64,000 bases of DNA from Desulfobotulus pelophilus (GTDB lineage Bacteria > Desulfobacterota > Desulfobacteria > Desulfobacterales > ASO4-4). Both the position numbers and the translations under genes were made by a program. How positions within the stretch are numbered: position 1 is the first letter of the stretch; each line of letters opens with the position of its first letter. The notes below the pieces were generated by a model. The model made no database searches and had not been told where the DNA came from. It was given only the letters and a program-made list of their open reading frames with translations. Of the stretch, positions 4,887 through 62,664 are shown piece after piece. The DNA lies in the NCBI RefSeq assembly GCF_026155325.1, contig NZ_JAPFPW010000005.1:1-64000 (forward strand). Direction: 5' to 3'.

Positions 4887-7800
4887 TCATCCCGCGGATC
4901 GCTGCCTGTCCGGAAGGGAAAAGGAGCCGTCCGCTGAGGATGCATGGTCACCTTCCATGCAGGGGCTAAGGGTGATGCCCCCTGTTTTGAAGTTTTCCGC
5001 CATGGCCTCACTGCCTGTCATGGTCAGGCCCCTTATTTCCATGCAGGGCATATCATCGTTGTCCAGAAAGGAGATGTTGCCTAAAAGCATATGACTGCTG
5101 CCGTTTTCCGCTGTATAAATCAGTCCCTTTACCTTGTCCGGAGTAAAGGATGAAGTCGTAAAAGAATGGGGCAGATGAAGGGACTTCACATGGGTGGGCA
5201 GGCAGACGCTGCCCCTGCTTTCAAAGCCGAAGAGGCAGGCCAGTTGCATGGCACTGTCCAGAATCAGGGATAATGGATCGGGATGGGCCTTGAGAACTTC
5301 CGGAGCAAGGCTGGCTTTCATGCCATTATCTCCCATGATCTCAATTTTCTGCAGTACCTGATAGGCTCTGCCGTGGAAAAGGATCTCATCATATACGATC
5401 CGGCAGTCTCTGGGATAGGACCGGGGATGGATGAGGACAGGGGATAGCTGGGGGCGGACACTGCCGGAACGGATGGTGCAGCGCATCCGGGGGGTAGCCG
5501 GTTTTCTTTCCAGAGATACCAGCGTCCGCTCACGGCCTTTTTTTTGCACTTCCAGAGGAAGAAGGCTGTCTTCATTCAGAATACAGCCCTTTAACAGGCG
5601 AAGATCCTCAAGAATCCGGAAGTCAGTATCCGGATTTGGGCGAAAATCCGGCCTTTCTTCCTGACGCAGGATTTCACAGGCAAGGGAGGCAAAGGGAACC
5701 ACTGCTTTGCCTGCAATGCTGTGGTCCGTAAATTCAGGCCGGGTTCTGACGGAAAAGATGCGCAGGGTTTCAGGCGCACTGTCTGGGGTTTTCTCTGTTT
5801 TCAGAGTTTTTTTTTCCGCCTCCCTGCCTGCTGCCAGCAGTACTTCAGGGTCATTGCCGGAAAGAATTTCGTGGGAGAAGGCTTCGCTGCCCTTATCCAG
5901 AGGAATCAGACCCACACCCTGTCGCTGAAAGTGCCGTGCCAGAGCAGGGGTGACCATGCCCCCTTCCCAGGGGCCCCAGCAGATGGATAGAGCCCGGCAA
6001 TTTTTGCGTGTGAGGTTTTCTCTCCGGGCGAGGGCGTTGAGAACGCCATTGGCCATGGCATAGTCCGCCTGTCCGGGATTGCCCTCCAGACTGGCAACGG
6101 AGGAAAAGAAAATCATGGCCTTCATGGGCATATCTTTCAGTGCCTCGGCCATATGCTTTGCAAAAAGGGCTTTCACGGAAAAGACTTTGCTGAAATCCTC
6201 TGCGCTTTTATCCACCATGGCCTTATCCGACAGTACACCGGCTCCGTGAACCCAGAGGGAGGGCAGGGTATTTTCTTCCTTTAGTTTTTTGAAAAGCCCT
6301 TCAATGGCATCCGGCTTTTCAAGGTCCATGGAAAGGTAGCGGGCATCGCAGCCAAGGCTTTTCATTTTTTTGAGGGTGTCACGGATGGCGCGACCGTTTT
6401 TTATCCGGTTGAACTCCGTATCCAGCTCTCTGGGCGTGGGAGTTTTTTCTGCAAAATGGTGGCGCAGCAGGGCTTTCCGGATGTCTTCTTTTTTCTGGAT
6501 GCCGGACAGCCAGAGGGGTTCGGGGCCGGGTTCCGGAGATCGGCCCGTAAAGAGCATGCGGCAGGGCCAGGAACGGGCCAGAGCTTCCACACAGGCTGCT
6601 GTTACGCCGTAGGCTCCGCCGGTGATGAGCATGAGATCGTCCTTGGCAGGGGGCGCAAGGGCTGGATTCTTTTCTTCGGCGGAACATTCCTTGAGAAGGG
6701 GGGTGCGGATGTGGCCTGAGGCATCGCATCCAAGGATCAGGGGGCCACGGCTGAAGAGGAGCTTTTTCATCAGAGGCTCCGCTGCGCCTGCTTCTCCGGA
6801 AAGATCCGCAAGGCGAAGGGCCATATCCGGCCATTCCTTCTGCAGGGTTCTCATGAGTCCTGCAAGGCTCTGGGTTTCAGGGGAAGCGCTGAAAGGATCA
6901 CTGGACCCAAGGCTTCCGTCACTCCGGGTGATGATGCAGAGGGAGCAGGCCTTAGAAGATGCAAGGGCTTTTTTGCCCCATGACCCAAGAAAGACGAACA
7001 GCTTTTGCAGGGCTTTTTCATCGTTATGGGCTGCCCATGGCACAATCAGGCTGGGCTGAAAGGAGGCGAGGGCTTCTTCGGCACGGCAGAGTTTCGGAGT
7101 TTTTCCGATGAGGGATTGCTTTATGGGAAAAAGGCCTGTTTCATCGCAAAAGTCCTGCAGCAGAGCCAGAGAAGCGGGAATGTTTTCATCCTCAGGATCA
7201 AAGGCCTCCCAGTGGATGGTGCTTCGGATAAGGGAGATTTCCTCCGCAGACGGCTCTGTGTCAGCGGAGGACTGTCTGCTTTCTGAAGCTGGGGAAGCTG
7301 TTTCCTTTATTGCAGTGATGGGAGAAGGCAGGTCTTTTTCCGGTGCAGGATCTGAAATCAGAGCTGCGATGGCCTGCACGCTGCGGCACTCCTGCAGGGT
7401 TTCTGCGGGAATCGTGGCCAGAGAGGGATAGATGCCTTCCAGCTCCGAGAGAATTTCTACTCTTTTGATGGAGTCTATGCCCAGATCCGCTTCCAGATCC
7501 ATGTCTGCCTGAATCATCTCTTCGGGGTAACCCGTATGGCGGGCGATGATGGAACGGATCGCTGCGGCGGCATCTGCAGGAAATACATTTTCCTGTACTT
7601 TATGGCTGTTATGGGATTTTTCATGGGTTGGCTGTGCATCCGGAACCACAAGGGCCGCTATGGCGGATATGCTGCGGGCTGTGGCAAGAATTTCCTGGGC
7701 CAGGGTGGCGAGGCCGGGATAAATGCCTTCCAGTTCGGAGAGAATTTCCACCCTTTTGATGGAGTCTATGCCCAGATCTGCTTCCAGATCCATGTCTGCC

Positions 7801-10800
7801 TGAATCATGTCTTCGGGGTAACCCGTATGGCGGGATACCAGCTCCGTGATGACAGGGATGGGGGATGCGCTGGCTGGAGATGTCGTGCTACTGGTTTTTT
7901 CCGGTACGGAAAGGGAGGCCGGAGAATGGTCTGTCAGAAGATCGGCAAAGGCCTGTAGGCTGCGGGCTTCGGCCAGTACTTCCGGTGCAAAACCGGCCAT
8001 GGCCGGGAAGTGTCCTTCCAGCTCCGAGAGAATTTCCACCCTTTTGATGGAGTCTATGCCCAGATCCGCTTCCAGATCCATGTCCGCCTGAATCATGTCT
8101 TCGGGATAACCCGTATGACGGGATACGGTGCTCACCAGAAGGGACAGAATGTTTTTTTCCTGCTGGCTGGAATTTTCCATGGTCTCAGGGGCTCTGGCTG
8201 CGGCTGCCTCAGGGACAGGTCGCGCCGGAACCGGGGGAGCCGGGGCGGGATCAGGTGAAAGATTTCTGGCCGGAGTTGAAAGATTCTCTGCAACAGGGGC
8301 AAGGCTTCCGGCTTCGGAAAAGGGTTTTTCAGGGTATTCCTGAAGGGAAAATCCTTCGCCCCTTCCCATGGAATGGACCAGTCTTTCCAGTGTGCGGCCC
8401 GCTTCGGACTGCAGGGATAAAAACTGTTCGTGGGCACGGGTGGTCTGTTCCTGAAGGGCTTTCAAGGTTTGGAAACCTTCCATCAGAACCCTTGAATCCA
8501 TGGGGGTACCTCGTTTCTGTAAAGTCTCAGTGGGTCTATGGGGGAGGGAATGCATGGCCACATCAACAGAATCTTGACGGGTGCCGGCCGGAGTTGTCGC
8601 AGCAGCAAGTTGTCGGGTGGATGCAGGTGCCACATCTGCAGAATTTGTATGGGCCTCTGCCGGGGTCTTTGCTGCTGGTTCAGGCCGGTGGATTGTTTCC
8701 CTGCTCCGGGCAGGGGCCAGATTCTCAGCGGAAAGGAGTCTGCTGTCAGCTGCCCGTAAAAGGGGCTTTTTTTCTGCGGCCTTTTTCCCCTGTTCCGGTT
8801 TGATATTGGCTCCGGAAAGCCAGATGGTCATCCGCCGCTCCGGGTTGGGCGGTGGCTCCGGGATGCCGGACCAGTCCACTCCATAGCCAAGGGCAGCCAG
8901 CTGGCAGAGAAGAATGAGAAGATCCATATCTCCTGAATTTTTTCCGGCGGAAGCATCCATGGCAAAACAATGCACGGATTCCTGTTCCAGAATGGCGGAA
9001 GCAAGGCCAGTGAGAACATTTTTAGGGCCTGTTTCCACAAAGGTGCGCACACCTTTATCATAAAGATATTTTATATTGCTGATGAAACGAACAGGAGAAA
9101 GGAGCTGGGAAGAAAGGGTCTGGCGGATGGCATCCCCATCCTTTTCATAGGCAAGGCCTGTGCCGTTGGCCATGACTTCCATGGAGGGAGCTTTGGGGGT
9201 GATGCCCTGCAGGGCCTCTGCAAAGGGTTTGGCCGCATCTTCCACAAGGGGGCTGTGGAAGGCGGCGGCAACGGGCAGCCTTATTCCCCTGATTTTGTGG
9301 CTCTTCAGCACCTTGGCCGCATGATCCAGAGCCTCTTTTCCACCGGAGAGCACGCACTGGGAAGGGCTGTTTTCATTGGCCAGCACCACATTCAGGTTTT
9401 CTTTTTCAATGAGGCTTTTCAGGGTTTCCACATCAGCCCGTACGGCCATCATTGCGCCCCGGTCCCTTGGGTCATCGGGGTCACCTGCCATGTAGCGGCC
9501 CCGGAGGACGGAAAGCTGCATGCATTCCGTTTCCTGAAACACACCGGCGCAGCAGAGGGCCGGGAGTTCTCCGTAACTGTGTCCGCATGTGGCATGGGGA
9601 CGGATGCCGAAACGTTCCAGTATGCGGGCCATGCCAAGGCTGACGCAGCCGATGGCGGGCTGGGCCAGATCCGTGGACCGCAGGGTTTCTTCCTCTTCTT
9701 TGCCCTCACCTGTAAAGGGATGGATAAAAGGGGAAAGGAGATGTTCTTTGCGGTGAGGGGCAGCGTATTCGGCCAGAGTGGCATTCCCCAGCTCAAGGCT
9801 TTCCAGCATTTCCGGGAAAATACAGGCAAGGCTTTTTCCCATGCCGGGATACTGGCTGCCCTGTCCGGGAAAGAGAAAGGCAAGTTTTCCGGGCGACTCC
9901 CCTTTGCCGAAAAAAATCTGGCCATGCTGGCCTTCCTTTTCTTCCCCGATAATGGCTCTGGCTTCTTTGATGGTACCTGCCATATCCCCATCTTTTTCCA
10001 GAAGGAGCAGCAGACGAAAGCTGTGGGCGGAGGAGAAATCTGATCGGGAACGGCGGCAGACTTCCTGCAGCATCCGGGGTTCCTTCAGTTCTGTTTTTTC
10101 CAGATCCGCAAGCTTGTGAAGAAGGGTATCCGTGTCTGGGCCGGAAACAGAGAAGATATCCGTATGAAAATCCCAGACCCATTCGTTTCGTTTTTTGCCA
10201 TATTCTTCCAGCACGGCATGGTAATCCGCTCCGCCAAAGCCAAAGGCACTGACCGCGGCCCGACGTGGGCGGTCTTTTTCTGTCGTCCATGGCATGGCTT
10301 GGGAAAGCATGCAAAAGCCGGAGGAGGGAATGTCCAGATCCGGATCCGGGGGAAGGTGTTTCAGTGCCGGGGGCAGCACCTTGTTATAAAGGCAGAGTAC
10401 GATTTTGATGAAACCAGCCATGCCCGCTGCGGCTTTGGTATGGCCGATGTTGGCCTTGACGGAGGAGAGAATGCAGGGCCTTGTGTCCCTTTCTTTGCCG
10501 TACACCGCCTGCAGGGCCTTGAATTCCACGGCGTCGCCCACACGGGTGCCGGTGCCGTGGGCTTCCACCAGATCCACGCTGGAGGGATGAAAGCCAGCCT
10601 CTTCACAGGCCTTTTCCAGGGCACGAATCTGACCTTCCGCTCCCGGTGCGTAGATGCTCTGGCTTCTGCCATCGCTGGCCGTACCCATGCCCTTGATGAC
10701 CGCATAGATACGGTCGCCATCTTTTTCGGCATCTTCAAGGCGTTTGAGAACGGCCATGCCCACGCCTTCTCCCAGTACGGTGCCGTCGGCCTTTTCGGAA

Positions 10801-11594
10801 AAGGGTCTGGCATCGCCGGAGTGGGAAAGAACGCCGGTCTGGGCAAAGCACATGTGCATGAAAATATCGTTTAAGGTATCCACGCCGCCGGTGATCACCA
10901 TGTCGGCTTTGCCCGTCTGCAGTTCCAGCACAGCCATGTGTACGGCGGCAAGGGAGCTGCCGCAGGCCGCATCCACAACGCAGTTGCTGCCCCCAAGGTT
11001 GAGGCGGTTGGCAATGCGTCCGGCAATGACATTGCCCAGAAGACCGGGGAATGCATTTTCCTGCCATGCTGTATGACCGGCCGCCATGCGTTCCATAATG
11101 GCGGTCTGGATATCTTCCGGGATTCCTTCGGCTTCCAGTGCTTCTTTCCACAGGGGATGGCTGAGTCGGGAAGCCAGCGGCACCACCAGCTCCTGAGTAC
11201 CCGTGGCACCGAGAATCACACTGGTGCGGGAACTGTCATATTCCCTCTGCTGGGGGTAGCCTGCGTCATCTAAGGCGCAGCGGGCCGTGACCAGACCCAG
11301 AAGCTGGGATGTATCCGTCACTTCAAGGAGATTGGGCGGAATGCCAAAGGCGGATGGATCAAAGGGATAGGGAGAAAGATAGCCTCCCCGGGTGCAGTAG
11401 GTTTTGTCCGGCGCACCGGGGGAGGGAGTAAAGTAGGCTTCCCTGGACCAGTGACTTTCGGGAACCTCACCGATGGCATCGAGGTTACGGAAAATCAGCC
11501 GCCAGAAAGCCAGCCTGTCCGGTGATTTTGGAAAAAGGCAGGCCATGCCGATCACGGCCAGATCACAGGGTTTGGATATGGAAGAAGGGGTCAT
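4887..11594 (-). CDS. pfaA: PfaA-like iterative polyketide/polyunsaturated fatty acid synthase
   Basis: A 2235-residue type I synthase. Domain order: ketosynthase (~10-450; active Cys ~211 in DAACGSS, His in VEAHGTGT and NIGHTKAAAG), acyltransferase (~575-880; Ser ~673 in GHSYGE), Ala/Pro linker, three tandem acyl carrier domains with LGIDSIKR (phosphopantetheine serines ~1181, 1278, 1375, spaced 97 residues), ketoreductase (ITGGAYGVTAA ~1655; Tyr ~1845 in DYAMANG), and a C-terminal dehydratase-like hot-dog region (DHSIAGKAVVPFA ~1960). This order is that of PfaA of bacterial PUFA synthases. The neighbouring PfaD supplies enoyl reduction. No PfaB, PfaC or phosphopantetheinyl transferase is in the window, so the set is minimal, or partners lie elsewhere. 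The product is unknown. Lies 18 bases after pfaD. Confidence 0.9.
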   Translation of the reverse strand: MTPSSISKPCDLAVIGMACLFPKSPDRLAFWRLIFRNLDAIGEVPESHWSREAYFTPSPGAPDKTYCTRGGYLSPYPFDPSAFGIPPNLLEVTDTSQLLGLVTARCALDDAGYPQQREYDSSRTSVILGATGTQELVVPLASRLSHPLWKEALEAEGIPEDIQTAIMERMAAGHTAWQENAFPGLLGNVIAGRIANRLNLGGSNCVVDAACGSSLAAVHMAVLELQTGKADMVITGGVDTLNDIFMHMCFAQTGVLSHSGDARPFSEKADGTVLGEGVGMAVLKRLEDAEKDGDRIYAVIKGMGTASDGRSQSIYAPGAEGQIRALEKACEEAGFHPSSVDLVEAHGTGTRVGDAVEFKALQAVYGKERDTRPCILSSVKANIGHTKAAAGMAGFIKIVLCLYNKVLPPALKHLPPDPDLDIPSSGFCMLSQAMPWTTEKDRPRRAAVSAFGFGGADYHAVLEEYGKKRNEWVWDFHTDIFSVSGPDTDTLLHKLADLEKTELKEPRMLQEVCRRSRSDFSSAHSFRLLLLLEKDGDMAGTIKEARAIIGEEKEGQHGQIFFGKGESPGKLAFLFPGQGSQYPGMGKSLACIFPEMLESLELGNATLAEYAAPHRKEHLLSPFIHPFTGEGKEEEETLRSTDLAQPAIGCVSLGMARILERFGIRPHATCGHSYGELPALCCAGVFQETECMQLSVLRGRYMAGDPDDPRDRGAMMAVRADVETLKSLIEKENLNVVLANENSPSQCVLSGGKEALDHAAKVLKSHKIRGIRLPVAAAFHSPLVEDAAKPFAEALQGITPKAPSMEVMANGTGLAYEKDGDAIRQTLSSQLLSPVRFISNIKYLYDKGVRTFVETGPKNVLTGLASAILEQESVHCFAMDASAGKNSGDMDLLILLCQLAALGYGVDWSGIPEPPPNPERRMTIWLSGANIKPEQGKKAAEKKPLLRAADSRLLSAENLAPARSRETIHRPEPAAKTPAEAHTNSADVAPASTRQLAAATTPAGTRQDSVDVAMHSLPHRPTETLQKRGTPMDSRVLMEGFQTLKALQEQTTRAHEQFLSLQSEAGRTLERLVHSMGRGEGFSLQEYPEKPFSEAGSLAPVAENLSTPARNLSPDPAPAPPVPARPVPEAAAARAPETMENSSQQEKNILSLLVSTVSRHTGYPEDMIQADMDLEADLGIDSIKRVEILSELEGHFPAMAGFAPEVLAEARSLQAFADLLTDHSPASLSVPEKTSSTTSPASASPIPVITELVSRHTGYPEDMIQADMDLEADLGIDSIKRVEILSELEGIYPGLATLAQEILATARSISAIAALVVPDAQPTHEKSHNSHKVQENVFPADAAAAIRSIIARHTGYPEEMIQADMDLEADLGIDSIKRVEILSELEGIYPSLATIPAETLQECRSVQAIAALISDPAPEKDLPSPITAIKETASPASESRQSSADTEPSAEEISLIRSTIHWEAFDPEDENIPASLALLQDFCDETGLFPIKQSLIGKTPKLCRAEEALASFQPSLIVPWAAHNDEKALQKLFVFLGSWGKKALASSKACSLCIITRSDGSLGSSDPFSASPETQSLAGLMRTLQKEWPDMALRLADLSGEAGAAEPLMKKLLFSRGPLILGCDASGHIRTPLLKECSAEEKNPALAPPAKDDLMLITGGAYGVTAACVEALARSWPCRMLFTGRSPEPGPEPLWLSGIQKKEDIRKALLRHHFAEKTPTPRELDTEFNRIKNGRAIRDTLKKMKSLGCDARYLSMDLEKPDAIEGLFKKLKEENTLPSLWVHGAGVLSDKAMVDKSAEDFSKVFSVKALFAKHMAEALKDMPMKAMIFFSSVASLEGNPGQADYAMANGVLNALARRENLTRKNCRALSICWGPWEGGMVTPALARHFQRQGVGLIPLDKGSEAFSHEILSGNDPEVLLAAGREAEKKTLKTEKTPDSAPETLRIFSVRTRPEFTDHSIAGKAVVPFASLACEILRQEERPDFRPNPDTDFRILEDLRLLKGCILNEDSLLPLEVQKKGRERTLVSLERKPATPRMRCTIRSGSVRPQLSPVLIHPRSYPRDCRIVYDEILFHGRAYQVLQKIEIMGDNGMKASLAPEVLKAHPDPLSLILDSAMQLACLFGFESRGSVCLPTHVKSLHLPHSFTTSSFTPDKVKGLIYTAENGSSHMLLGNISFLDNDDMPCMEIRGLTMTGSEAMAENFKTGGITLSPCMEGDHASSADGSFSLPDRQRSAG

Positions 11595-19017: not shown

Positions 19018-19404
19018 ATGAATTCAATCAAGATGTACGCCATATCCGAGCTGGCTGCTGAGCTGGAAATCAGTCCTTCCACCATTCGTTTCTATGAGGA
19101 TAAGGGGCTGATCTCTCCTGAACGCAGTGCTGGCAACCAGCGGCTGTATTCTAGAAAACACAAAGCAAGGCTCAAGCTGATTCTCCGGGGTAAGCGTTTC
19201 GGATTTTCTCTGGCAGAAATTGCGGAAATGATCGGATATGCGGATGTTCCCCTCCATGAGGCGGATCAGATTCGTAAAAGCCTTGCCTTTGGCAGGGAAA
19301 AGCTTGAGGAAATCCGAAGAAAAAAAGAGGATCTGGCCCTTTTGGAGGCGGACATTCTTTCCATGCAGGAGTTTCTGGAAAAACGGCTGCAATCCATAAA
19401 ATAA
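19018..19404 (+). CDS. MerR-family transcriptional regulator
   Basis: A 128-residue regulator: N-terminal winged helix-turn-helix (AISELAAELEISPSTIRFYEDKG given in part; RLYSRKH wing) and a C-terminal coiled coil (~75-125). No cysteine cluster for metal sensing is present, so it is not a CueR/ZntR-type metal sensor. The sequence and its acyl-CoA dehydrogenase neighbour suggest the LiuR-like group that controls branched-chain amino acid or fatty acid catabolism; this is an inference. Preceded by a perfect dyad operator. Confidence 0.85.
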   Translation: MNSIKMYAISELAAELEISPSTIRFYEDKGLISPERSAGNQRLYSRKHKARLKLILRGKRFGFSLAEIAEMIGYADVPLHEADQIRKSLAFGREKLEEIRRKKEDLALLEADILSMQEFLEKRLQSIK

Positions 19405-19412
19405 TGGAATGG

Positions 19413-19747
19413 TTCAGCACATTTTTTTAACTTTCATGCCTGCCAGATAAATGCAGAGGCATCCAAGCTATTTACCCGTGACGCAATCTTATTCTTAGAG
19501 CTTCTTGCCCTGTACGGAAGCGGCAAAAACTCCCCGCCACAGGCAGGATAAGCTTTTTGATTGTCATAGCAAGCGTAAGCACGTTGCCTTTGTGGCGGCT
19601 CAGACAGTTTGCCGCTTCTTTCGCACAGGGCTTCAAAGCTCTGATCCGAAACGATTGCAACGTCACTTGCAAATAGCCAGGATGCCTTGCAGCCGTACGA
19701 AGCTGTTGAAATTAGAGCGGTGACAATTTTGAATAAAATGTGCTGAA
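19413..19747. repeat. Long palindromic dispersed element, copy A
   Basis: The core 19457-19687 (231 bp) is one imperfect inverted repeat. The left arm runs AGGCATCC...GACGCAATC...AGAGCTT...GGAAGCGGCAAA...CCGCCACAGGC and the right arm is its complement, leaving a loop of about 45 bases near 19547-19590. Outside, TTCAGCACATTTT (19413-19425) and AAAATGTGCTGAA (19735-19747) form a perfect 13-bp outer pair. A second 231-bp copy with no indels lies at 52393-52623 (about 91% identical by hand count). It fills the gap between merR and the acyl-CoA dehydrogenase gene. It could be a MITE-like element or a structured RNA; no transposase is present. Confidence 0.85.
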
Positions 19748-19833
19748 CAGTTACAAAATAATAAATGATGCCCAGAAAAAGCCTTCCGGAACAGGTTGCC
19801 ATTCCCAATTGATTCCCCTTAAAGGAGACCGCC

Positions 19834-50533: not shown

Positions 50534-50690
50534 TGGTTCTGTTTTCCCGACTGCTGCGATGATATAGTACCTACCGTTCATCAGGCTGAGCGAATCTTTA
50601 TGGTTCGCCATAGCCGGGTGCAGGGGAGCCCTTTATCATGGCAGCAGGCCTGGTTTGCTGTCTGTATACCGGATAAACCAGGAGCTATGC

Positions 50691-52271
50691 ATGTCTATCC
50701 AGCTAGAACTAATTGATTTTATAAAAAAAACCCTTCCAGTTGAAGCCGATGACCCCAAGGCAGGTAAAGAAAGCGAACCTCTGTCTCCATCCGGTTTCGG
50801 ATCGGATGTCAGCCGGGCTGTTCATTCCGCTCTGATCCTTCGACCCATCTTTGAGCTGGAAGCCCGTCGTTTCGGTCAGGGTGAAGAAGAACTCAGCGGC
50901 GAGATCTGGATGCGGGTTGATCTGATGTGGACGGCATTTGCCATTCTCGATGTCATCTCAGAGCTGACCGAATACCAGATCGGTGTCACCCGCAGTGAAG
51001 TAACGCAAAAAATCCTTCCCCTCCTCCGTCAGCAGGTTGCTGCAGAAAACAGATTTTTCCCCGATGAAGCCCTTGAAGAAGTAAGCTCTAAAATTTTTGA
51101 CCATCTCACAAACAGAAACAACCGCTACCTTCCCTTTTCCTGTCCCTTTTTTGATGCCGATGCAGGACGCTACCGCACCCGCCGCTTCTGGCTCATCAAA
51201 AATGTCTATACGGGCGAAGGCAGCGAGGCCCTGTTCGCCCTCACGGAAGAAGGCTACACAGCCTATTTCGGCCTGCACGAAACCAGTGCCCTGGATGCTG
51301 CTGCCATCGGCAACCTGCGCATCAAGCTGCTCATTGAAAGGGGCAATCTGGATGATGCCATTGCCGTGGCCGAAACCAACCGAAGGCATTGCGCCCGAAA
51401 GGCAGGAGAAGTGAGAACGGTGCGCCGCCAGATCAGCCGGAACATCAAGTCCGTGGGTTTTGACCGGGTTCAGGCCCTGGCCGAAGAGGGTGTCAATCAG
51501 GTCATGGATATCCAGAAGGAAGGCAACCGTCTGCACAACCTTGTCATCGAAAACCTGCATGGCGGCGGATACAGGGGCCACAGCAGCACCCTTTACAGGC
51601 TGGCCGACAAGCTTGAAGGCTTAAGTAACCAGCTGATGAAGCTTTCTGGCCAGCTCCAGAGCCTGCCCGAAGACTACCAGAAACACAGCCACAAACTTTT
51701 CAGAAAAGAAGCCAGCGGCGTATTTCCCGGCATGGATGAGGTCATGGAAAGGATTTTTTCTCTGGATGAGGAAAACGCCGCCCGCATGGGGAAGGAATTC
51801 ATCGCCCGCATAAATCCTCCGGCACAAAGGCCTCTTTTTGATCCGGCATCGGTGATGGAAGCCTGTGAACGCGCCCTGGAGCGCAGGAATCCGCCGGGCG
51901 ATCAGACCCAGGTGCTCCTGGAGGTGGACGGCGAACCCCTTATATGCTTTCAGCCGGAACTGAATGAGAAAGTAATGCAGCAGGCCTTTCACCTGATCCA
52001 TCATCTCCTTGGCCGCAAAAAAGAGCTGAGACTGGGGCAGGTTCTGGAACAGGCCCTGACGGAGTCCGATGAAAGCCTTTTCCCCGTTGCAACGGCCATG
52101 GCCGTTTTTCAGTGCCTTGTGGAAAAACGCATTGCAGACAGATACGGCATCCATGTGGACATGCCCGACCCGCAAAGCCGCATCACCATGGATCTCGGAA
52201 GCGGAAGACGCTACCGGGGCCATGAACTGCGGCTGAGGCAGCGGGTTCTTTCCGGCAACCCAAGGGAATAA
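50691..52271 (+). CDS. jetA: Wadjet-like JetA (kleisin/MukF-like subunit)
   Basis: A 526-residue protein starting at ATG 50691 (CCAGGAG site). Assignment rests on operon order and shape: an N-terminal helical/winged-helix region (RAVHSALILRPIFELEAR, DLMWTAFAILDVISEL), a middle with ALTEEGYTAYFG, a long helical arm (RNIKSVGFDRVQALAEEGVN), and a C-terminal winged-helix-like part. In Wadjet/MksBEFG systems this subunit bridges the SMC heads. Cannot separate JetA from MksF by eye. The downstream jetB is separated by 400 bases, which hold palindrome copy B. Confidence 0.72.
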   Translation: MSIQLELIDFIKKTLPVEADDPKAGKESEPLSPSGFGSDVSRAVHSALILRPIFELEARRFGQGEEELSGEIWMRVDLMWTAFAILDVISELTEYQIGVTRSEVTQKILPLLRQQVAAENRFFPDEALEEVSSKIFDHLTNRNNRYLPFSCPFFDADAGRYRTRRFWLIKNVYTGEGSEALFALTEEGYTAYFGLHETSALDAAAIGNLRIKLLIERGNLDDAIAVAETNRRHCARKAGEVRTVRRQISRNIKSVGFDRVQALAEEGVNQVMDIQKEGNRLHNLVIENLHGGGYRGHSSTLYRLADKLEGLSNQLMKLSGQLQSLPEDYQKHSHKLFRKEASGVFPGMDEVMERIFSLDEENAARMGKEFIARINPPAQRPLFDPASVMEACERALERRNPPGDQTQVLLEVDGEPLICFQPELNEKVMQQAFHLIHHLLGRKKELRLGQVLEQALTESDESLFPVATAMAVFQCLVEKRIADRYGIHVDMPDPQSRITMDLGSGRRYRGHELRLRQRVLSGNPRE

Positions 52272-52392
52272 AAAATATACCGTCTGAGTAGCTTCAAAAG
52301 TTACTTTACGACAAGACGCCGCAACACGGCGTGCGTTGCAATTCAGTACCATTTGCGCTTGGTTAACTGCTACAACTGTAAGGCCCGTGCAC

Positions 52393-52623
52393 AGGCACCC
52401 GCGCTATTTGATCGTGACGCAATCTTATTCGTAGAGCTTCTTGTCCTGTGCGGAAGCGGCAAAAACTCCCCGCCACAGGCAGGATAAGCTTTTTGATTAC
52501 CATAGCTGGCTTGAGCACGCTGCCTTTGTGGCGGCTCAGACAGTTTGCCGCTTCTTTCGCACAGGTCTTCGAAGCTCTGATCCGAAACGATTGCAACGTC
52601 ACTTACAAATAGCCTGGGTGCCT
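52393..52623. repeat. Long palindromic dispersed element, copy B, between jetA and jetB
   Basis: 231 bp, the same length as the core of copy A (19457-19687), about 21 differences by hand count. The ends are AGGCACCC and GGGTGCCT, whereas copy A has AGGCATCC and GGATGCCT: one base pair changed on both sides (T-A to C-G). The segments GGAAGCGGCAAAAACTCCCC and its partner GTTTGCCGCTTC are unchanged, while the loop (~52498-52523) varies. Sits in the 401-bp gap 52272-52672, which holds no gene; it splits what is normally a tight operon. Confidence 0.85.
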
Positions 52624-52672
52624 TACACTGAAACCAAACAACTAAAATTACAGTGAAGGGTGCACCTTTTTT

Positions 52673-53467
52673 ATGGAACACCATACAGAATCCTTTCATG
52701 GGGCCAGCCGCCTGATTTATTTAAGCCTCCTATACAGCAGCGGCAGCCGCAGGGCCATGGCCCCCTTCAGTGCCGAGATGGCCGAACTCATCCAGCGTTT
52801 TCAGTCCCAGGACAGCTTCCGCCAGATGGTGGAAACGGGCCTGAAGGCCATGGAGCTGAGGCTCCTTGCCCTGGAAGACAAGGGCCTTCGCCTTTCCGCC
52901 CGTCGCTCGGACAGTTTTTTTGCAGCCACCCTCACGGATTACGGAAAACTCCTTGCCAGAAGCGACCTCAAGGCAGCGGAAATCCTTCCCGTTCACTGCG
53001 CCATTGCCACGGCCTTTTTCCCGACGGAGGCGGATCTGGATGCTCCGGTGGAAGACCTCGGTGCCATTGTCATCATGGATGTCATGGATATCCTGAAACG
53101 CTTTGCCCTTGCAGAATCCGCCCTGCCCGATGGAGAAACAAGGCTGCATCCCCAGGTGAAGAGCGTTGCGGAACGCCTTCGCCTTCTGCCCGAAGACAAT
53201 CCGGACAGACAAAGGGCGGGCAGCGGTTCAAGCTGGGTGGAAATGATTGCCATCGTACTGGATCACATGGTGGAAACGGGCTATCTGCTGGCCTTTGAAG
53301 AAACACCTGGGGAGGTGGAATACAGGCCGACGCCTGCCTATCAGACCGCCCTGAGGGAAGGTATTGTCTATGCTTTCCACGCCTTCCGGGATATTGTGAC
53401 CACCGCTCCCCTTCAGGAAAAAAAGACAGCCGGAAATGCGGCCGGGGAAGGGAAACCCCATGTTTAG
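52673..53467 (+). CDS. jetB: Wadjet-like JetB (KITE/MukE-like subunit)
   Basis: A 264-residue mostly helical protein with winged-helix character (ELIQRFQSQDSFRQMVETGL, LRLLALEDKGLRLS, then SSWVEMIAIVLDHMVETGYLL). This matches the small KITE-type subunit (DUF4194/MksE-like) of SMC-kleisin systems by position and look. The 3' end overlaps jetC by 8 bases, so the two are coupled. The start is uncertain: only AAGGG at a long distance precedes ATG 52673, and the ATG at 52757 (MAPFSAEM) is possible. Confidence 0.7.
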   Translation: MEHHTESFHGASRLIYLSLLYSSGSRRAMAPFSAEMAELIQRFQSQDSFRQMVETGLKAMELRLLALEDKGLRLSARRSDSFFAATLTDYGKLLARSDLKAAEILPVHCAIATAFFPTEADLDAPVEDLGAIVIMDVMDILKRFALAESALPDGETRLHPQVKSVAERLRLLPEDNPDRQRAGSGSSWVEMIAIVLDHMVETGYLLAFEETPGEVEYRPTPAYQTALREGIVYAFHAFRDIVTTAPLQEKKTAGNAAGEGKPHV

Positions 53468-56400
53468 ACTCAATAAATTCTTTGTAAGCGATATCAAGGC
53501 AGGGGACAATATTCTGCGCAATGGCTTTGTGCCCGTATTCCGGGAGGATGGGGATGCGGATCATGGTGTTCTTTTTGCTGCCAACGGCACCTGTAAAACC
53601 ACCCTCTTATCCTTTATCCTCAGCGTGTTCAGCCCATCCAGACAGCGCTTTGTGCAGCACCTGCAATCCGGCGGGGACAAGAGTCTGGACCAGTATCTGA
53701 TTCCCGGCCGTCCTGCCATCGTCATGCTGGACCTTGCCATGGTACTGCAACCCACCCTCTTTGAGACAAAACCCGTGGATCATCTGGTTTTGGGCCAGCT
53801 TCTCTATCGCCACAGCAACACGCCGGACAAAGTTGATCGCACTTTTTTTCTGGCCAGATCCGCTGATTTTTTTGACACCCTGCGCAGCCAGTGGGACGGA
53901 CTTCTCGATCAGGAAAAGCCCTATCAGGCCCTGAAGGATTTCATGGCTCCGCTTATCCAGCAGACCTCCAGCCAGAAGGAATGGGAGGAAACCCTGGAAG
54001 AGCTTGGGCTTGATCCCTGGCTCATTGACCGTCAGGTGGATTTTGCCCGTACGGAAGGGGGCATCAAGGATGCCTTCCGCTTTAAATCCGAAGGGGATTT
54101 TTTAAGTTTCTTCCTTGGCTGCGTGACGGATATGGAAGCTGCCAAAGAATTGCGCGAACGCATGGATCAGGACTTAAGCAAAATGAAGGACCGCCCGAGA
54201 AAACGGGCCCAGCTTGATGCCGTACGCAGCCTAAAGGAGCGCATCGCCGACTTTGACACCATCGCCGCCCTCTGGCGCAGTGCAGGAAAGGCCATTGAAA
54301 AATGGCGGATGCAACTGGGAGAGGCCAGCCATCTTCTCCATGGTGCAGAAGCTTCTTCCCGGACAGAGCTGGAAGAACTTGAAAATGAGCAGAAACATGC
54401 CGAAGACTCTTTGCGGACCCTTCGGACCGGACTGGAAACCACCCGGAGCAATATCCTTTATCTGGAGCACTTCTGCATATCCAGTGCCGTAGAAGAAGGA
54501 GAAAAAAGCCTCCACAGAAATCATGGGGAAAGCGAGGCGCTAAAGGCTGAAAAAAACGCCCTCCTTGCTGCGGACTTCATGGCGGATATCCGTAAAAATC
54601 AGGCCGAAGCGGACACAAAGGATAAGGCTCTCGCCGAAGCAGGCAAAGAAATCAATCCCTTGCAGGAAAAATTAAAAACCCTTGCGGCCCAGTACCATCT
54701 GCGTCTGGATGCAGACCGCCACGGACTGAAAGCCGCCATGGAAAATCTGTGCCGGGAAGAGGAAGAAAGAAAGCAGCATCAAAGGGCTGTGGAAAAAAAA
54801 CAGCAGGCAGGGGAAATCCTCAGGCAAGCCCTTGAAAAGGAGCTTGAGAATCTGAACGGTCGCATCCGGGGAGCCGAAGCTGGCCGTACCTTGCTGCCCC
54901 TTGATCCTGGAGAAGAACCCTCCGCCGCCCTGGACCGGCTCCATGGGGAAAAAGCGGGCTTTGAAAACCGCATCATTATGGTTGAAAAGGAAATGAGCGC
55001 CGGAGAAGAGGCCCTGAAGGCCCAGGATCGCAACTGGCGTCGTTTGCTGGAAGAGTGTTCAAAAGCACAGGGAAAACGCAGCGAATCCCTCAAAGCCATG
55101 GAAGAAGAAGCGGATTTACGGCGGCATCTTCTGGAAGATCCCCATCTTGTGCGCATTGCCGGAACCCGTGATATGGAAATCAGCTCGGCAGAGCTCCTTT
55201 CCCGGCTGGATGACACCCTGGTGCGCAGCGAGGAACGTCTCAGGAAAAAGGAAAGGCAGACCCTTCAGCTGGAAGAAAAGCTGGAAGCTCTGGATCAGGG
55301 AGGCGGCCTTGCCGCCGATGACCTTACCCGCCGCCTTCTTTCCTATTATCATAAAAAAGGCCATGAAAAGGGTATTGCCCCCGGAGAACTCAAGTCCTAT
55401 CCCGAATACCTTGCGGATCTCTACCCTGCGCCGGAAATCCTGGCCCGGTACATCGAAGGGGATCCGGCGCGGTTCACGGGCATGATGGCGGCCAGTCAGG
55501 ATGTCATTGAAAGCATCCTTGAGATGCCACCACCTCCCTGGCTGCACCGGCCCGTGGTGATTTCCACCCCCTGTGCTCCGGAGGCGGTCAGCACTGTGGA
55601 GCAGACCCTGATCCGCCCCCTGACGCCCGAGGTCTATTCCAGACAGCACATGGAAAAGGTGAGGGAAGAATACCAAAAAACGCTGGAAAAGGTGGCAGAG
55701 GAAAGGGAAGAAGCCCGGAGCCTCCTTAAAGCCATGGAAGGCGTAAGCCGCAATCTCCATGCCTATCAGGAGCGTTTTCCCGATGCCGGAGCTGTGGCCG
55801 CCCTCCGTGAACGGGCAGATGCGGGGGAGAAAAAACTTTCTGAAATCAAAGCTGCCATTGCTGAGGCTGAAGCGGGCATGGAAGCCCTCAGCCGCTCAAA
55901 AACAGATCTGGAATCCCGCTACCGCCATCTGAAAGACCAACTCGCAGACCTTTCTCGGATGCTCCAGCAGGTGAACACCTGGGTTTCATCCTTTGCGGAT
56001 CTGGCCGCATGGGAGGAGGAAAGGGAAAAAAAGACCCTTGAAAAAGGAGCCGTGGAAAAGGCCATCCGGGCGGATGGAAAGACCCTTACGGAACTCAAGG
56101 AAAAAGAACTCCGGATTTTTAAGGATATCCACATATGCAAATCCGATCTCAAAGGGCTGGACGAAAAGGCCTCTGAAATCATGCGGCCTGAGGATACGGA
56201 ACTGAAGACCGAAGAGCAGGAAGAAGCCCTGTCCATGGATCTTCAGACCCTGCTCCATCTTCATAGGGCCGCAAGGGAAACCCTGAGACAGATGAGCCAT
56301 ACGCTCGGTATAGACCATCTTGGCAGAGAGCTTGAAGATCTTCAGGCACGCATTGCAAGGCTTCAGTCCGAATTCGAGGCCTTTGGCCGCAGCCACAGCT

Positions 56401-57881
56401 TTGATGGAAAAAGTGCGGAAAACTGGGCCACGCGGGGCTTCAGGGATAGAAAGGCGTACCTTGAAAGCCTTTCCGGGAAACTGGAAGGGCTGAAGGAAAG
56501 CCGCATCCGCATGGAAACGGAACTGGAACACAAAAAAAAGGATCAAATCCGCAGCGAGGCCCTTCTTTCGGAACAAAAAGCCAAAGGTTTTCCCCAGGAT
56601 CTTAGGGAAGAAAACCTGAAGGATCAGGACACAGATGCGCTGCTGCATCGTCTGGAAAGCGAAAAAAGAAGGCAGCAGACCGACTGCGAAACCCTTTTTT
56701 CCCGCTCTGAGCGCCTCAAAGAGAAGCTCAGCTTCCTTGAAAAATGGCGTCAGGAACTTCGCATTGCCATGGCGGAAAACCAGACCTTTGAACCCCTCTG
56801 GGATCAGGATTCTCCCCGTCATCCATGGCCGGACCTGCTGGAGCCGGGCAGAGACAGGATGGCTTCCATCCGGCAACTGCTGGAAGAAATAAGGGAAATG
56901 GCCGCAGCCGAAAGAAAGGAGCGGGAAACCGGAGAAAACGCCCGCAGACGGATGCGCAGTGCCTTTGACCGTCTCCAGACCCACCTTCAGGATGATGCCT
57001 GCCGCCATGACCTCCCCGCTGTGGTGGATGCCCTGAGAAGCCACGATGCCGAATCCTTAGGGCTTCAGGCCGAAGACCTGATCCGGCGCTGCGAAGATAT
57101 CGCCCGTAACATTGAAATGGATCTGAAAATTACCCAGCGCTTCATGGACAGTCTTGTGGACAGGCTGCTGCAGCACAGCCGGGATTATCACCAGAAACTG
57201 CAATCCGCCGCAAGGGAGCTTCTTCCGGAGACCGTTTTCATTTACGGCGGAAAACCCATTCTTCGCACAGGTGTCCGACTGGATTTTGCCCGCTACCAGG
57301 ATGCCTTCCGCCAGTCTGTGGAAAACTGGCTTTATCAGCTCATGCAGCAGAACCGCCTGCCGGAAGTCAATCCAAAGGCAGGCAACGGCCTTGGCTCTGA
57401 GCTGCTTTATCAGCTTCTGGGGGCCGCATCGGGCCGGGAGAATTTCGGTATCCGCATGCTGAAATGCGATGACTCCGGCAGCACCTACGAGCCCGTGGGA
57501 AAGGATCTCGGTTCCGGAGGCGAAGCCCTCACCATTGCGGTCATGCTCTACACCCTGCTCATCTCCATGCGAAAAAAGCGCAACAGTGCTTCCGAAGGCA
57601 GAATTCCCGCATTCCTCATTCTGGACAATCCCTTAGGCGTCTGCAACCGCTCGGACTTTGTGGATGCCCAGCTCAAGGTGGCGGGAAACATGGGCCTTCA
57701 GTGCGTCTATTTCACCGGCATCCATGACCGGGAATCCTTAGAACTTTTTGAACTGCGCACAGCCATCCGCAAAGGGGATAAAAAACTTGAAATCGACGGT
57801 ATTTCCTATAACTGCCTTGAAGTCACGGAGCTGAATGTGGAAAAAACAAAGAGGCAGGTGAACCACCATCAAGCCCCCTGA
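53460..57881 (+). CDS. jetC: Wadjet-like JetC, SMC/MukB-type ATPase with long coiled coil
   Basis: A 1473-residue SMC-like protein starting MFRLNKFFV at ATG 53460. Head halves flank ~1200 residues of charged heptad coiled coil. The Walker A is AANGTCKTT (residues 40-48): the lysine is kept, but the usual Gly before it is Cys and the first Gly is Ala. The ABC signature is SGGEALTIA (~1353) and the Walker B is FLILDNPLG (~1383), with Asn where the catalytic Glu normally follows Asp. Type I JetC is nearer 1100 residues, so this is a long, divergent member. Predicted to load on and extrude DNA with JetA/JetB. Confidence 0.78.
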   Translation: MFRLNKFFVSDIKAGDNILRNGFVPVFREDGDADHGVLFAANGTCKTTLLSFILSVFSPSRQRFVQHLQSGGDKSLDQYLIPGRPAIVMLDLAMVLQPTLFETKPVDHLVLGQLLYRHSNTPDKVDRTFFLARSADFFDTLRSQWDGLLDQEKPYQALKDFMAPLIQQTSSQKEWEETLEELGLDPWLIDRQVDFARTEGGIKDAFRFKSEGDFLSFFLGCVTDMEAAKELRERMDQDLSKMKDRPRKRAQLDAVRSLKERIADFDTIAALWRSAGKAIEKWRMQLGEASHLLHGAEASSRTELEELENEQKHAEDSLRTLRTGLETTRSNILYLEHFCISSAVEEGEKSLHRNHGESEALKAEKNALLAADFMADIRKNQAEADTKDKALAEAGKEINPLQEKLKTLAAQYHLRLDADRHGLKAAMENLCREEEERKQHQRAVEKKQQAGEILRQALEKELENLNGRIRGAEAGRTLLPLDPGEEPSAALDRLHGEKAGFENRIIMVEKEMSAGEEALKAQDRNWRRLLEECSKAQGKRSESLKAMEEEADLRRHLLEDPHLVRIAGTRDMEISSAELLSRLDDTLVRSEERLRKKERQTLQLEEKLEALDQGGGLAADDLTRRLLSYYHKKGHEKGIAPGELKSYPEYLADLYPAPEILARYIEGDPARFTGMMAASQDVIESILEMPPPPWLHRPVVISTPCAPEAVSTVEQTLIRPLTPEVYSRQHMEKVREEYQKTLEKVAEEREEARSLLKAMEGVSRNLHAYQERFPDAGAVAALRERADAGEKKLSEIKAAIAEAEAGMEALSRSKTDLESRYRHLKDQLADLSRMLQQVNTWVSSFADLAAWEEEREKKTLEKGAVEKAIRADGKTLTELKEKELRIFKDIHICKSDLKGLDEKASEIMRPEDTELKTEEQEEALSMDLQTLLHLHRAARETLRQMSHTLGIDHLGRELEDLQARIARLQSEFEAFGRSHSFDGKSAENWATRGFRDRKAYLESLSGKLEGLKESRIRMETELEHKKKDQIRSEALLSEQKAKGFPQDLREENLKDQDTDALLHRLESEKRRQQTDCETLFSRSERLKEKLSFLEKWRQELRIAMAENQTFEPLWDQDSPRHPWPDLLEPGRDRMASIRQLLEEIREMAAAERKERETGENARRRMRSAFDRLQTHLQDDACRHDLPAVVDALRSHDAESLGLQAEDLIRRCEDIARNIEMDLKITQRFMDSLVDRLLQHSRDYHQKLQSAARELLPETVFIYGGKPILRTGVRLDFARYQDAFRQSVENWLYQLMQQNRLPEVNPKAGNGLGSELLYQLLGAASGRENFGIRMLKCDDSGSTYEPVGKDLGSGGEALTIAVMLYTLLISMRKKRNSASEGRIPAFLILDNPLGVCNRSDFVDAQLKVAGNMGLQCVYFTGIHDRESLELFELRTAIRKGDKKLEIDGISYNCLEVTELNVEKTKRQVNHHQAP

Positions 57882-58097
57882 AAAAATAAAAGCCGTACTG
57901 GCTGCAGGAGACAAGGGGCTGGATCTGCTGATATACTCTGGGTGGTCATTCTTGATACATGGGGCAGTCTTGAAACGATATGAAAAAGTTCTTGACCCGT
58001 GTGTTTGAAATTTTCGAATGTTTCACGGTTGACCGCTTGGAGTAAAATAAAGATATACTGGAAAAACTGCTTTTCCTCACCACAAAAGGTGCAAGCC

Positions 58098-59849
58098 ATG
58101 AAAAAAAGAATCCTCTACGGCGAAGCCAATTATCCAGCCATTGTTCGTGAAAACGGCTACTTTGTGGACAAGACTGCCTACATCGAAAAACTGGAATTCG
58201 TTAAAAATCCCGTCTTTCTGCGTCCAAGGCGTTTTGGAAAATCCCTTCTCTGCACCATGCTGGAGTCCTACTATTCGGTTTTATACAAAGAAAACTTTGA
58301 AGAGCTTTTCGGCCACACATGGATTGGCAAAAACCCAACGCCCCTGCACAATACTTTGCTTGTGCTGCATCTGGATTTTTCCACCATTGAGACCGGTGAG
58401 CTGGAATTAATGGAAAAAAGTTTTGATCACACAGTGAACCTTGCCCTTCAATCCCTGGTGAACAGAAACATCTGTTTTTTAGAGGATAAGCCGCTGCTGA
58501 ATCCGGAAAACAGCTCCGTATCCAATCTCAAGGCCGTTATCAATAAGATCCAGGACAACAAGCTACCGCCCCTCTATGTCATCATCGATGAGTACGACAA
58601 TTTTGCCAACCAGCTCATCACAGGCCATAAAGACCTTCTTTATAAGCAGCTCATGGCCGATGACGGTTTTTTAAAAACCTTTTTCAAGCTTTTAAAAGAG
58701 GGCCGAAAAACCGGAACCATCCACAATGTTTTCATCACAGGCGTTCTGCCCGTCACCATGGATGAACTGGCTTCGGGCTTCAACATTGCCACCTTCATCA
58801 CCCTGAACCCCAATTTTGAAAACATGATCGGCTTCACCCAGTCCGAAGTGAATTTACTTCTCGATGACATTTACAGAGATTATGAAATCCGCCCGGATAC
58901 CCGCAATGAAGTACAGGATGTCATTAAAAATCAGTATAATGGCTATCATTTTATCGATCCTGAAGGCGAGGCCGTCTATAACTCCACCATTCTTCAATAT
59001 TTTCTGAGCTGGTTCTGTGAATTTAAAACCATGCCCAAACACTTAACGGACATGAACCTCAAAACCGATATCCTGTGGATCAAAAGAATCACCGGCTCCA
59101 ACCCTGAGCTTACCCAGGATTTTGTCACCCAGCTGACAACCCAGAACAGCATTGACTATGACGACACCCTGCTCACCCAGAAATTCAACATGTCCCGTTT
59201 TTTTGAAAAGAGCTTTTTTCCCATCTCCTTTTTTTATCTGGGGATGCTTACCCGAAAAAATGACTTTGCCCTAACTCTCCCCAACCTCAACATGAGAAGA
59301 ATCTTTGTGGAATACTTCAATGAACTCCACCACATTGACGTTTCCACCCGCTACGGGAACATGATGCAGCATTTTGTCAGAACCCTTGACCTGAAATCTC
59401 TGTTTGCTGGCTACTGGCAGGAATACGTTTCCCAACTTCCCGAAGCGGTCTTTTCCCAGGTAAACGAGAACTTCTATCGCACCACCTTCTATGAACTCTG
59501 TTCCCGCTATCTTTCCCGCTGGTTCACCTGGAATGTGGAAAGGTCCTACCCCAAGGGCAGAACAGATCTGGAGTTTGTGGGCAAATTCAATGAATGCTTT
59601 GCGGGCATCCGTATGGTCATCGAGTTCAAATACTTTTCCAATGCCGCCTTTAAAAAATTCAATACCAGCATTGAAAACTTCACCCTGATTCCTGAAGATA
59701 CGGAGCAGATGGCAGGCTATGTGGAAGGGCTTAAAAAGGAATACCCGGAAGCAAAGATCAGCCAGCATGTGATTTACTGTTTTGGCAATGGGGGATTCAG
59801 GGTATTTGATACGGACCCCCTTCCGGCATCAAATGAACCGGTAAGCTGA
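58098..59849 (+). CDS. AAA-ATPase-like protein with C-terminal PD-(D/E)XK nuclease domain
   Basis: A 583-residue protein of the AAA-ATPase_like + DUF1703 family, common in horizontally moved regions. N-terminal NGYFVDKTAYIEKL, then P-loop RPRRFGKSL (~45), Walker B-like VIIDEYDNF, VFITGVLPVT sensor region; the C-terminal nuclease-like part holds RTDLEFVG and MVIEFKYFS (D...ExK). Start at ATG 58098; an upstream frame extension from 57999 is not supported. Its presence between jetC and jetD suggests insertion; a role in the defence locus is only inferred. Confidence 0.85.
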   Translation: MKKRILYGEANYPAIVRENGYFVDKTAYIEKLEFVKNPVFLRPRRFGKSLLCTMLESYYSVLYKENFEELFGHTWIGKNPTPLHNTLLVLHLDFSTIETGELELMEKSFDHTVNLALQSLVNRNICFLEDKPLLNPENSSVSNLKAVINKIQDNKLPPLYVIIDEYDNFANQLITGHKDLLYKQLMADDGFLKTFFKLLKEGRKTGTIHNVFITGVLPVTMDELASGFNIATFITLNPNFENMIGFTQSEVNLLLDDIYRDYEIRPDTRNEVQDVIKNQYNGYHFIDPEGEAVYNSTILQYFLSWFCEFKTMPKHLTDMNLKTDILWIKRITGSNPELTQDFVTQLTTQNSIDYDDTLLTQKFNMSRFFEKSFFPISFFYLGMLTRKNDFALTLPNLNMRRIFVEYFNELHHIDVSTRYGNMMQHFVRTLDLKSLFAGYWQEYVSQLPEAVFSQVNENFYRTTFYELCSRYLSRWFTWNVERSYPKGRTDLEFVGKFNECFAGIRMVIEFKYFSNAAFKKFNTSIENFTLIPEDTEQMAGYVEGLKKEYPEAKISQHVIYCFGNGGFRVFDTDPLPASNEPVS

Positions 59850-60036: not shown

Positions 60037-61161
60037 ATGAAGGAGTGCATGACATATAAATCCGGAAAATTCATTTTCCAGGAAAAATATGACTCTCAAA
60101 TAATAAGGGAGCTGTTTATCAGGGCAATGGTTCTGAATGAAACCATTGCAGAGCTGCCCGTTTTCTCCGGTCTGGCATCACGACTGGAACCAGAGATCAT
60201 GTACAGCTCCATTGCCGGGACCGCCGCCATCGAAGGCAACCCCATATCAGAAGCAGATGTCAGAAAAATATCAGAAGGCCATGATCTTATTGATTATTCT
60301 GCCAAAGATCAGCAGGAGATCAAAAATCTTATTGAGGCCTATGATTATCTCTCTGAGAAAAAAATCATCTCTCAGCCTTTTCTGATCAGCGAACAGCTCA
60401 TCCGGAATCTGCATAAAATCATTACCACTAATGTGCCCCATGAATACAACATACCTGGCAATTACCGAAACGGAAGGGTGGAAGTCGGTGACAAAGCCCA
60501 TGGCGGCGTATACAGGCCTCCCAAATGCCTGGATGACGTCAGCCTGCTGATGGCTGCCTTCACAGAATGGATGAACAGCCATGAAATACTGGAATTGCCC
60601 CCCCTCATAAGGGCACCCCTTGCACACTATTATTTATGTGCCATCCATCCCTTCTGGGACGGAAACGGAAGAACAGCCCGACTGCTGGAAGCCCTTATCT
60701 TGCAAACTGGCAAGCTGCAATACATACCCGGAGAATTATCAAACTATTATTACAGAAATATAGACAATTATTATAGTGCTTTTTCAAAAACAAACAAACT
60801 CGGAAACGATGCCACTCCTTTTTTAGAATTTTTTCTGGATGCTGCCATATTTTCCATGGAAAAAATTAAAAAAATAATAATTTCTTCCATAAAAATCTTT
60901 GCATTAAAAGATCATTACACAGACCAGAACCAGAAAAAAGAGATAAACAAAAGGCATTTTGAGCTGCTGACTCTTCTTCTCGATTATCCACCTGATTTTG
61001 TCTTTTGTATAAAAGATCTCATATCAAAAATGCCCTTCAGGCTTCTCTACAGCAGTATCAGCAGCCAGACAGCCCGAAGAGACCTCGCCAAATTATCAGA
61101 AATGGGGCTTCTCCTGAATAATAACGGTGAATACTCACTGAATTTTCGCTTTTCCGGGTAA
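60037..61161 (+). CDS. Fic-family AMP-transferase
   Basis: A 374-residue Fic protein: the active motif HPFWDGNGRTAR (H204) is intact. An N-terminal inhibitory helix motif TAAIEGN (E66) makes it a class II, self-inhibited Fic. An N-terminal Fic_N-like segment and a C-terminal winged-helix (~300-370, SSQTARRDLAKLSEMGLL) complete the common DUF4172-less architecture. Transfers AMP to target hydroxyls. AT-richer than its neighbours, with different codon use, suggesting recent arrival. Confidence 0.9.
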   Translation: MKECMTYKSGKFIFQEKYDSQIIRELFIRAMVLNETIAELPVFSGLASRLEPEIMYSSIAGTAAIEGNPISEADVRKISEGHDLIDYSAKDQQEIKNLIEAYDYLSEKKIISQPFLISEQLIRNLHKIITTNVPHEYNIPGNYRNGRVEVGDKAHGGVYRPPKCLDDVSLLMAAFTEWMNSHEILELPPLIRAPLAHYYLCAIHPFWDGNGRTARLLEALILQTGKLQYIPGELSNYYYRNIDNYYSAFSKTNKLGNDATPFLEFFLDAAIFSMEKIKKIIISSIKIFALKDHYTDQNQKKEINKRHFELLTLLLDYPPDFVFCIKDLISKMPFRLLYSSISSQTARRDLAKLSEMGLLLNNNGEYSLNFRFSG

Positions 61162-61277: not shown

Positions 61278-61353
61278 TCCCACGGTATTTCCTATAACTG
61301 CCTCGAAATCACGGAGCTGAATGTGGAAAAAACAAAAAGACAGATAAACCATG
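61278..61353 (+). pseudogene. Remnant copy of the jetC 3' end
   Basis: Encodes GISYNCLEITELNVEKTKRQINHG followed by TGA (given here as GISYNCLE-ITELNVEK-TKRQINHG). The jetC end at ~57799-57867 encodes the same with Val for both Ile and HH for HG. The six or so base differences are silent or conservative, so it derives from a related jetC under selection and not from recent copying. The TGA overlaps the ATG of the next gene. Upstream homology fades at 61268-61280. Confidence 0.8.
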
Positions 61354-62064: not shown

Positions 62065-62444
62065 AACTCCGCTGCCGGAGGGATGGGATGGTAGCAGTAA
62101 ACAAGGGCACCGGAGGGATCCAGAAGCCCGAAGCCCCTGTCTCCCCATGGATGATCTTCCAGAGGCATGATGACAGACAGACCCGCCTGATCATGCAGCC
62201 TCTCGTACATGGCATCGGCATCCGTCACAAGGACATTCAGAAAGATACCTCCGGTAAAAGGAACCATGCCTTCCTGGGGCTTCATAAGGCAGATTTCCGG
62301 CCCGGACGGGGAAGCTCCAAGGCGAAGCACCACGTACCAGCCGCAGTCGAAGGCCGGGCGGGCATCAAAGTGTGAGATATAAAATCCCTTTGTTTCTTCA
62401 AGATTTTGCGTGACAATGGTTGTGCTGACGGATTGAATTTCCAT
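62043..62444 (-). CDS. VOC-family (glyoxalase/bleomycin-resistance-like) protein
   Basis: A 133-residue VOC protein: two beta-alpha-beta-beta-beta units, e.g. VTQNLEETKGFYISHFDARPAF and NVLVTDADAMYERLHDQAGL (shown in part), with RGFGLLDPSGALVYCY at the end. The family covers dioxygenases, glyoxalases and antibiotic-binding proteins; function cannot be told. Start at ATG 62444 with GGAGG just upstream. AraC-VOC pairs are common and suggest stress or xenobiotic handling. Confidence 0.85.
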   Translation of the reverse strand: MEIQSVSTTIVTQNLEETKGFYISHFDARPAFDCGWYVVLRLGASPSGPEICLMKPQEGMVPFTGGIFLNVLVTDADAMYERLHDQAGLSVIMPLEDHPWGDRGFGLLDPSGALVYCYHPIPPAAEFQQYILG

Positions 62445-62664
62445 GTCTTCCTCCAAGGGTTCCTGTTTTCCTCAATACAAAACGCTGATGGGCAGAATAG
62501 CTCAATATATGTGGCAGAATCTTGAATTTTTTGGCCAAAAAACCAGCTGTTCTGACAGGAATGCCCCTATACCTTCATGGCAATGGCAGGCTTTCAGCCA
62601 AAAAAAAGCTTTTTTAGTTTCTGACCGACAAAGAACTCTAATAACCCGGCAAAGGATATTCTCC

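Follow-up and report, generated by a model that had tools for sequence, protein, structure and literature searches.

We found that a 231-bp palindromic repeat present twice in the window (the whole stretch of DNA that was analysed, 64,000 nucleotides of a Desulfobotulus pelophilus contig) is the core of a longer mobile element. The family to which it belongs is a new, genus-restricted, high-copy family of foldback MITEs with IS66-type ends; it is an ordinary kind of element, notable for the size of its burst and for the palindromy that runs along its whole length. The feature is probably a non-autonomous MITE mobilised by an IS66-family transposase, its pairing being renewed among source copies and each copy decaying after insertion. 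A MITE-like mobile element was one of three possibilities raised in a preliminary description of this DNA, and the mobility of the MITE is demonstrated by its inverted ends, its 8-bp target duplications, the existence of empty sites and its high, dispersed copy number.

Two copies in the window and their sites

Both 231-bp copies that had been described, 33 kb apart, were recovered, at 19457-19687 (copy A) and 52393-52623 (copy B), and together they make up a direct-repeat pair of 266 nt with 87% identity. The 231-bp core therefore stands as a unit, but not as the size of the whole element, since alignment of full copies places the core in the middle of a longer element and the full copy A measures 349 bp (19406-19754, plus strand). 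Copy A has terminal inverted repeats and an exact 8-bp target duplication, AAAATAAT, at 19398-19405 on the left and 19755-19762 on the right (both read on the plus strand). Its left terminal inverted repeat, GGAATGGTTCAGCACA (19406-19421, plus strand), is partly decayed and reads GTAATTGTTCAGCACA in the ortholog that copy A has at the identical site in the congener G002; its right terminal inverted repeat, read on the minus strand, is GTAACTGTTCAGCACA (19739-19754). The core, on the plus strand, extends from AGGCATCC to GGATGCCT, is exactly 231 bp long and is better conserved across the family than any other part. At 349 bp the element is too short for a transposase gene and has none of its own; it is a MITE by its size, its inverted ends, its target duplications and its empty sites.

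A MerR-family gene (19018-19404; Pfam) has its stop codon in the left target duplication of copy A, and the gene downstream encodes an acyl-CoA dehydrogenase, a protein that places the host in the Desulfobacterota, near Desulfoluna. Between copy A and its ortholog in G002 the element itself shows 4.9% divergence and the next 79 bp downstream show 0 differences, whereas third codon positions of both flanking genes differ by 15-19% at this single site. Such slow evolution hints at some constraint on the sequence of this one site, and would speak against pure decay.

The core of copy B (plus strand, from AGGCACCC to GGGTGCCT) is likewise exactly 231 bp long and shares 90% identity with copy A across 52388-52627. 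To its left lies a decayed extra end module, which we call module b (52283-52349, plus strand; 84% match to a 75-nt module query). On its right side (52624-52672, plus strand) similarity fades near 52653, and we found no right terminal repeat between the core and the start of the next gene at 52673, which indicates that the right end has been lost. Copy B is not present at the corresponding place in either of the two congeners, G001 and G002.

Copy B is hosted by a Wadjet-like operon, in which it lies between a jetA-like gene (50655-52271; PADLOC JetA3) and an unassigned gene that occupies the jetB position (52673-53467). These are followed by JetC3 (53436-57881; PADLOC) and, further on, by an ORF that is a candidate jetD partner by position and motif (62443-63735). 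Between the host and G002 the jetA genes share 99% identity, yet copy B is old and decayed. Note that the 3' end of jetC (57796-57865) is repeated 3.5 kb downstream at 61282-61351, and that these repeats flank an AAA-ATPase/PD-(D/E)XK ORF (57999-59849) and a Fic-like ORF (60037-61161; PADLOC SoFic); from its sequence, the segment between the repeats has the appearance of an insertion at the end of jetC. (Elsewhere in the window, a minus-strand ORF at 4887-11594, of 2235 aa, resembles a polyketide or fatty-acid synthase by motif reading and contains three 204-nt repeats, at 7340-8122, that read by motif as tandem acyl-carrier-protein-like stretches.)

Copy number, host range and mobility of the family

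The preliminary description had proposed that further copies be sought in the genome and its relatives, and these proved to be numerous. A sequence search of the host genome (G000, a 3.66-Mb draft in 86 contigs) returned about 31 matches to the element, and the end pattern occurs 33 times in the host when up to 3 mismatches are allowed; under the stricter limit of 2 mismatches it occurs 371 times in G001 and 166 times in G002, and reversed-pattern controls gave 0-1. (The host genome and those of both congeners are draft assemblies and may lack some IS copies.) When 389 genomes of the order were searched with the end pattern, only the host, G001 and G002 had more than one isolated match. Outside the genus, five genomes gave a single isolated end match each, with no similarity beyond the end, and we rejected these as the autonomous parent because the similarity stops there. 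Phages and plasmids that were searched gave no match to the element; a match on a viral contig (L270), located at the edge of coding regions, was dismissed as fortuitous. With about 180 or more foldback copies in one 4-Mb genome and far fewer in congeners, the family amounts to a natural MITE-burst experiment.

Elements of the family share the inverted ends GTAAyTgTTCAGCACA, which are 16-20 bp long across the family and have the 8-bp duplication directly outside them. Elements with these ends range from about 177 to 479 bp; some of the short variants are internal deletions, and the long variants contain inserts with the borders TCCGGCACTCAAG/CTTGAGTGCCGGA. The same borders mark the ends of a second palindromic repeat, with no obvious target duplication, that occurs at several positions within the MITE (L196, L197, L206, L214 and others). 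Many copies carry an additional 58-bp module, of the kind seen on the left of copy B, placed between the outer GTAACT and the remainder of the end, and copies with module b terminate in GTAACTTCTGAGCA. In at least seven module-bearing copies an exact 8-bp duplication was found outside the module, and because the duplications lie there, the module-bearing end also appears, on sequence grounds, to be a working end.

Target duplications matching at 7 or more of 8 positions flank 50 of 105 end pairs, and the match is exact in 30 of the 105; comparisons shifted outward gave 0-1, and shuffling of the flanks gave a mean of 1.24. To look for empty sites, the joined flanks of host copies were sought in G001 and G002 (L002 was not counted). 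For six host insertions G002 has a contiguous empty site with a single target, as in the case of AACTGATTACAGAAAAAG in G002 versus AACTGATTACAG, the element and GATTACAGAAAAAC in the host. Two of these six sites are likewise empty in G001, and the element is present there at the other four. The G001 copy L282 and the host copy L003 share a target and lie in opposite orientation, with 90% identity when one is flipped and 80% when it is not, as could result either from inversion in place or from an independent hit. Of 46 insertions, 20 are no more than 30 nt from a stop codon, compared to 34% of random non-ORF positions, which is only suggestive of an insertion preference for stop codons.

That the element is palindromic, mostly intergenic and present in high copy would also fit a repeat of the REP/BIME type that a Y1 (RAYT) transposase had spread. 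Y1-type REP elements, however, are not expected to produce inverted terminal repeats with 8-bp duplications, and the inverted terminal repeats, the 8-bp target duplications and the clean empty sites contradict this explanation, which we regard as extremely improbable.

The transposase that may mobilise the MITE

The ends of IS66 elements are 20-30 bp long, start with GTAAGCG and are flanked by 8-bp repeats (PMC11946415). The MITE shares with the IS66 family the GTAA start of its ends and the 8-bp target duplication, although agreement between the published IS66 ends (GTAAGCG) and those of the MITE is limited to GTAA (PMC11946415). The sole IS66 (PF03050) element that we found in the genus, G001:C66:2927-4832, has the ends GTAACTTCTCAATAAGTG, with which the ends of the MITE agree in GTAACT and at a few other positions only; the module-b end shares GTAACTTCT with it. 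Beyond GTAACT the ends of the two diverge, their interiors are unrelated and the MITE is without a transposase. Because the PF03050 element found has other ends, we call the MITE IS66-like rather than IS66-derived. (G002 also has a separate 228-bp MITE, L299 at G002:C2:291032-291259, whose ends nearly match those of the IS66 element in G001 and which is flanked by an exact 8-bp duplication, CCATTTTT.)

The preliminary description had also suggested looking for a full transposon with the same ends. No autonomous element with the exact ends GTAACTGTTCAGCACA was found in the three genomes of the genus or in the 389 genomes of the order. Nor did we find the PF03050 transposase in G000 or G002, or the TnpB of IS66 in any of G000, G001 and G002. 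In the literature, too, we found no account of a comparable MITE with IS66 ends, which is weak evidence of novelty as most subscription papers lay outside the search. The lack of an autonomous partner with identical ends and of detectable IS66 transposases in G000 and G002 would be accounted for if the mobiliser came from another transposase family that also makes 8-bp duplications. We think this unlikely: GTAA ends together with 8-bp duplications are the published signature of IS66 (PMC11946415), and in the genus both an IS66 element and a MITE with IS66 ends open with GTAACT. An IS66-family transposase is thus the best inference for the mobiliser.

Pairing kept in the spreading family and lost in single copies

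As had been described, the whole core of both copies folds into one long hairpin (-134.2 kcal/mol and z = -7.3 for copy A; -137.4 kcal/mol and z = -7.9 for copy B), and 0 of 100 shuffles folded as well in either case. The compensating change reported on both arms at the outer ends of the core is also real, AGGCATCC/GGATGCCT in copy A being AGGCACCC/GGGTGCCT in copy B, with T-A versus C-G. The covariation survives in a wider alignment of 31 core sequences, in which the pair takes CG, AU, UA, GC and UG forms. Two-sided changes occur in 28 pairs of this alignment (shuffles, 13.4 ± 2.6). Its covariation score of 0.111 exceeds the 0.086 of shuffles (0 of 500 reached it), and both excesses are inflated by the relatedness of the sequences. 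Controls in which the pairing partner was slid gave 13-28 two-sided pairs and scores of 0.039-0.056, and a slide of one column gave 28 pairs. Because much of the covariation consists of fixed differences between subfamilies, the independent events are fewer than the cells.

We considered whether the core hairpin might be a functional RNA, such as a regulator, an attenuator or an RNase III substrate, carried by a mobile element and conserved because of its structure. The excess of two-sided changes over shuffles would be consistent with this idea, as would the slower evolution, relative to nearby third codon positions, of copy A and its 79-bp downstream flank, and the better conservation of the core, in which 4% (stems) and 6% (unpaired) of cells depart from the majority compared to 14-17% in the outer part. 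Relatedness, however, inflates the shuffle-based excess and the one-column slide matches its 28 pairs, and the private mutations of the core point the other way: these number 0.43 per stem column and 0.26 per unpaired column, and 48 of 72 core-stem singletons break a pair. Stems are thus hit no less often than loops, so the covariation does not show a structure maintained in each copy. Moreover, Rfam gave no match to the element, and the diverged host copies fold worse than the more uniform copies of G001 (81% mean pairwise identity and a mean of -121.8 kcal/mol in G000; 92% and -145.8 kcal/mol in G001; in both genomes the loci were picked by best match and are non-random). We therefore consider a functional RNA very unlikely. 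We found no evidence for the regulatory RNA that had been proposed, and none for a DNA-binding platform.

Given the private stem mutations and the worse folding of the diverged G000 copies, pairing has been kept along the amplifying line and then lost. The structure belongs to the spreading family and not to a gene maintained at the site of copy A, and compensatory changes within repeats are no proof of a functional RNA, since pairing can be kept across subfamilies and lost in single copies. A related reading, in which the 231-bp core acts as a passenger, a functional hairpin of RNA or DNA under family-level selection for spread or for less damage to the host, would accommodate a core common to subfamilies with different outer ends whose individual copies decay; it seems to us quite unlikely.

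The covariation might instead be purely mutational, template switching between the arms rewriting pairs with no selection at any level. Template switching is known to yield compensatory changes and to maintain hairpins (PMC8794818), and in copies L012, L013 and L180 changes are clustered on the two arms. Mismatches and internal loops are nonetheless conserved from copy to copy, which implies that any correction of one arm by the other is incomplete, and we hold this account to be possible rather than probable. It bears only on the way in which pairing is maintained and does not conflict with reading the feature as a MITE; either template switching or better transposition of intact copies could keep pairing among amplifying copies.

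We propose that an IS66-family DDE transposase, encoded elsewhere, would bind the GTAA ends of the MITE and insert it into AT-rich targets at gene borders. The near-complete palindrome would be a property of the amplifying copies, with the matching of the arms renewed among source copies, perhaps because intact copies transpose better or perhaps because template switching during replication copies one arm onto the other. Inserted copies would then decay, with no measurable selection on pairing. If transcribed together with its neighbours, a copy would give a long double-stranded hairpin. No host benefit is needed to explain the element.

ERIC and Correia elements are shorter than the MITE described here, and they have other hosts and different ends and duplications. 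Like the MITE, they are palindromic, mostly intergenic and present in tens to hundreds of copies (PMC10969869), and their transcripts form stable stem-loops (PMC10969869). The Chunjie MITE of Geobacter uraniireducens is likewise small and non-autonomous, with variants in size and sequence; its full length is 235 bp compared to 349 bp here, and we liken the two by description alone (PMC10969869). By analogy, the MITE may at most work like ERIC and Correia elements, and it is not a member of those families.
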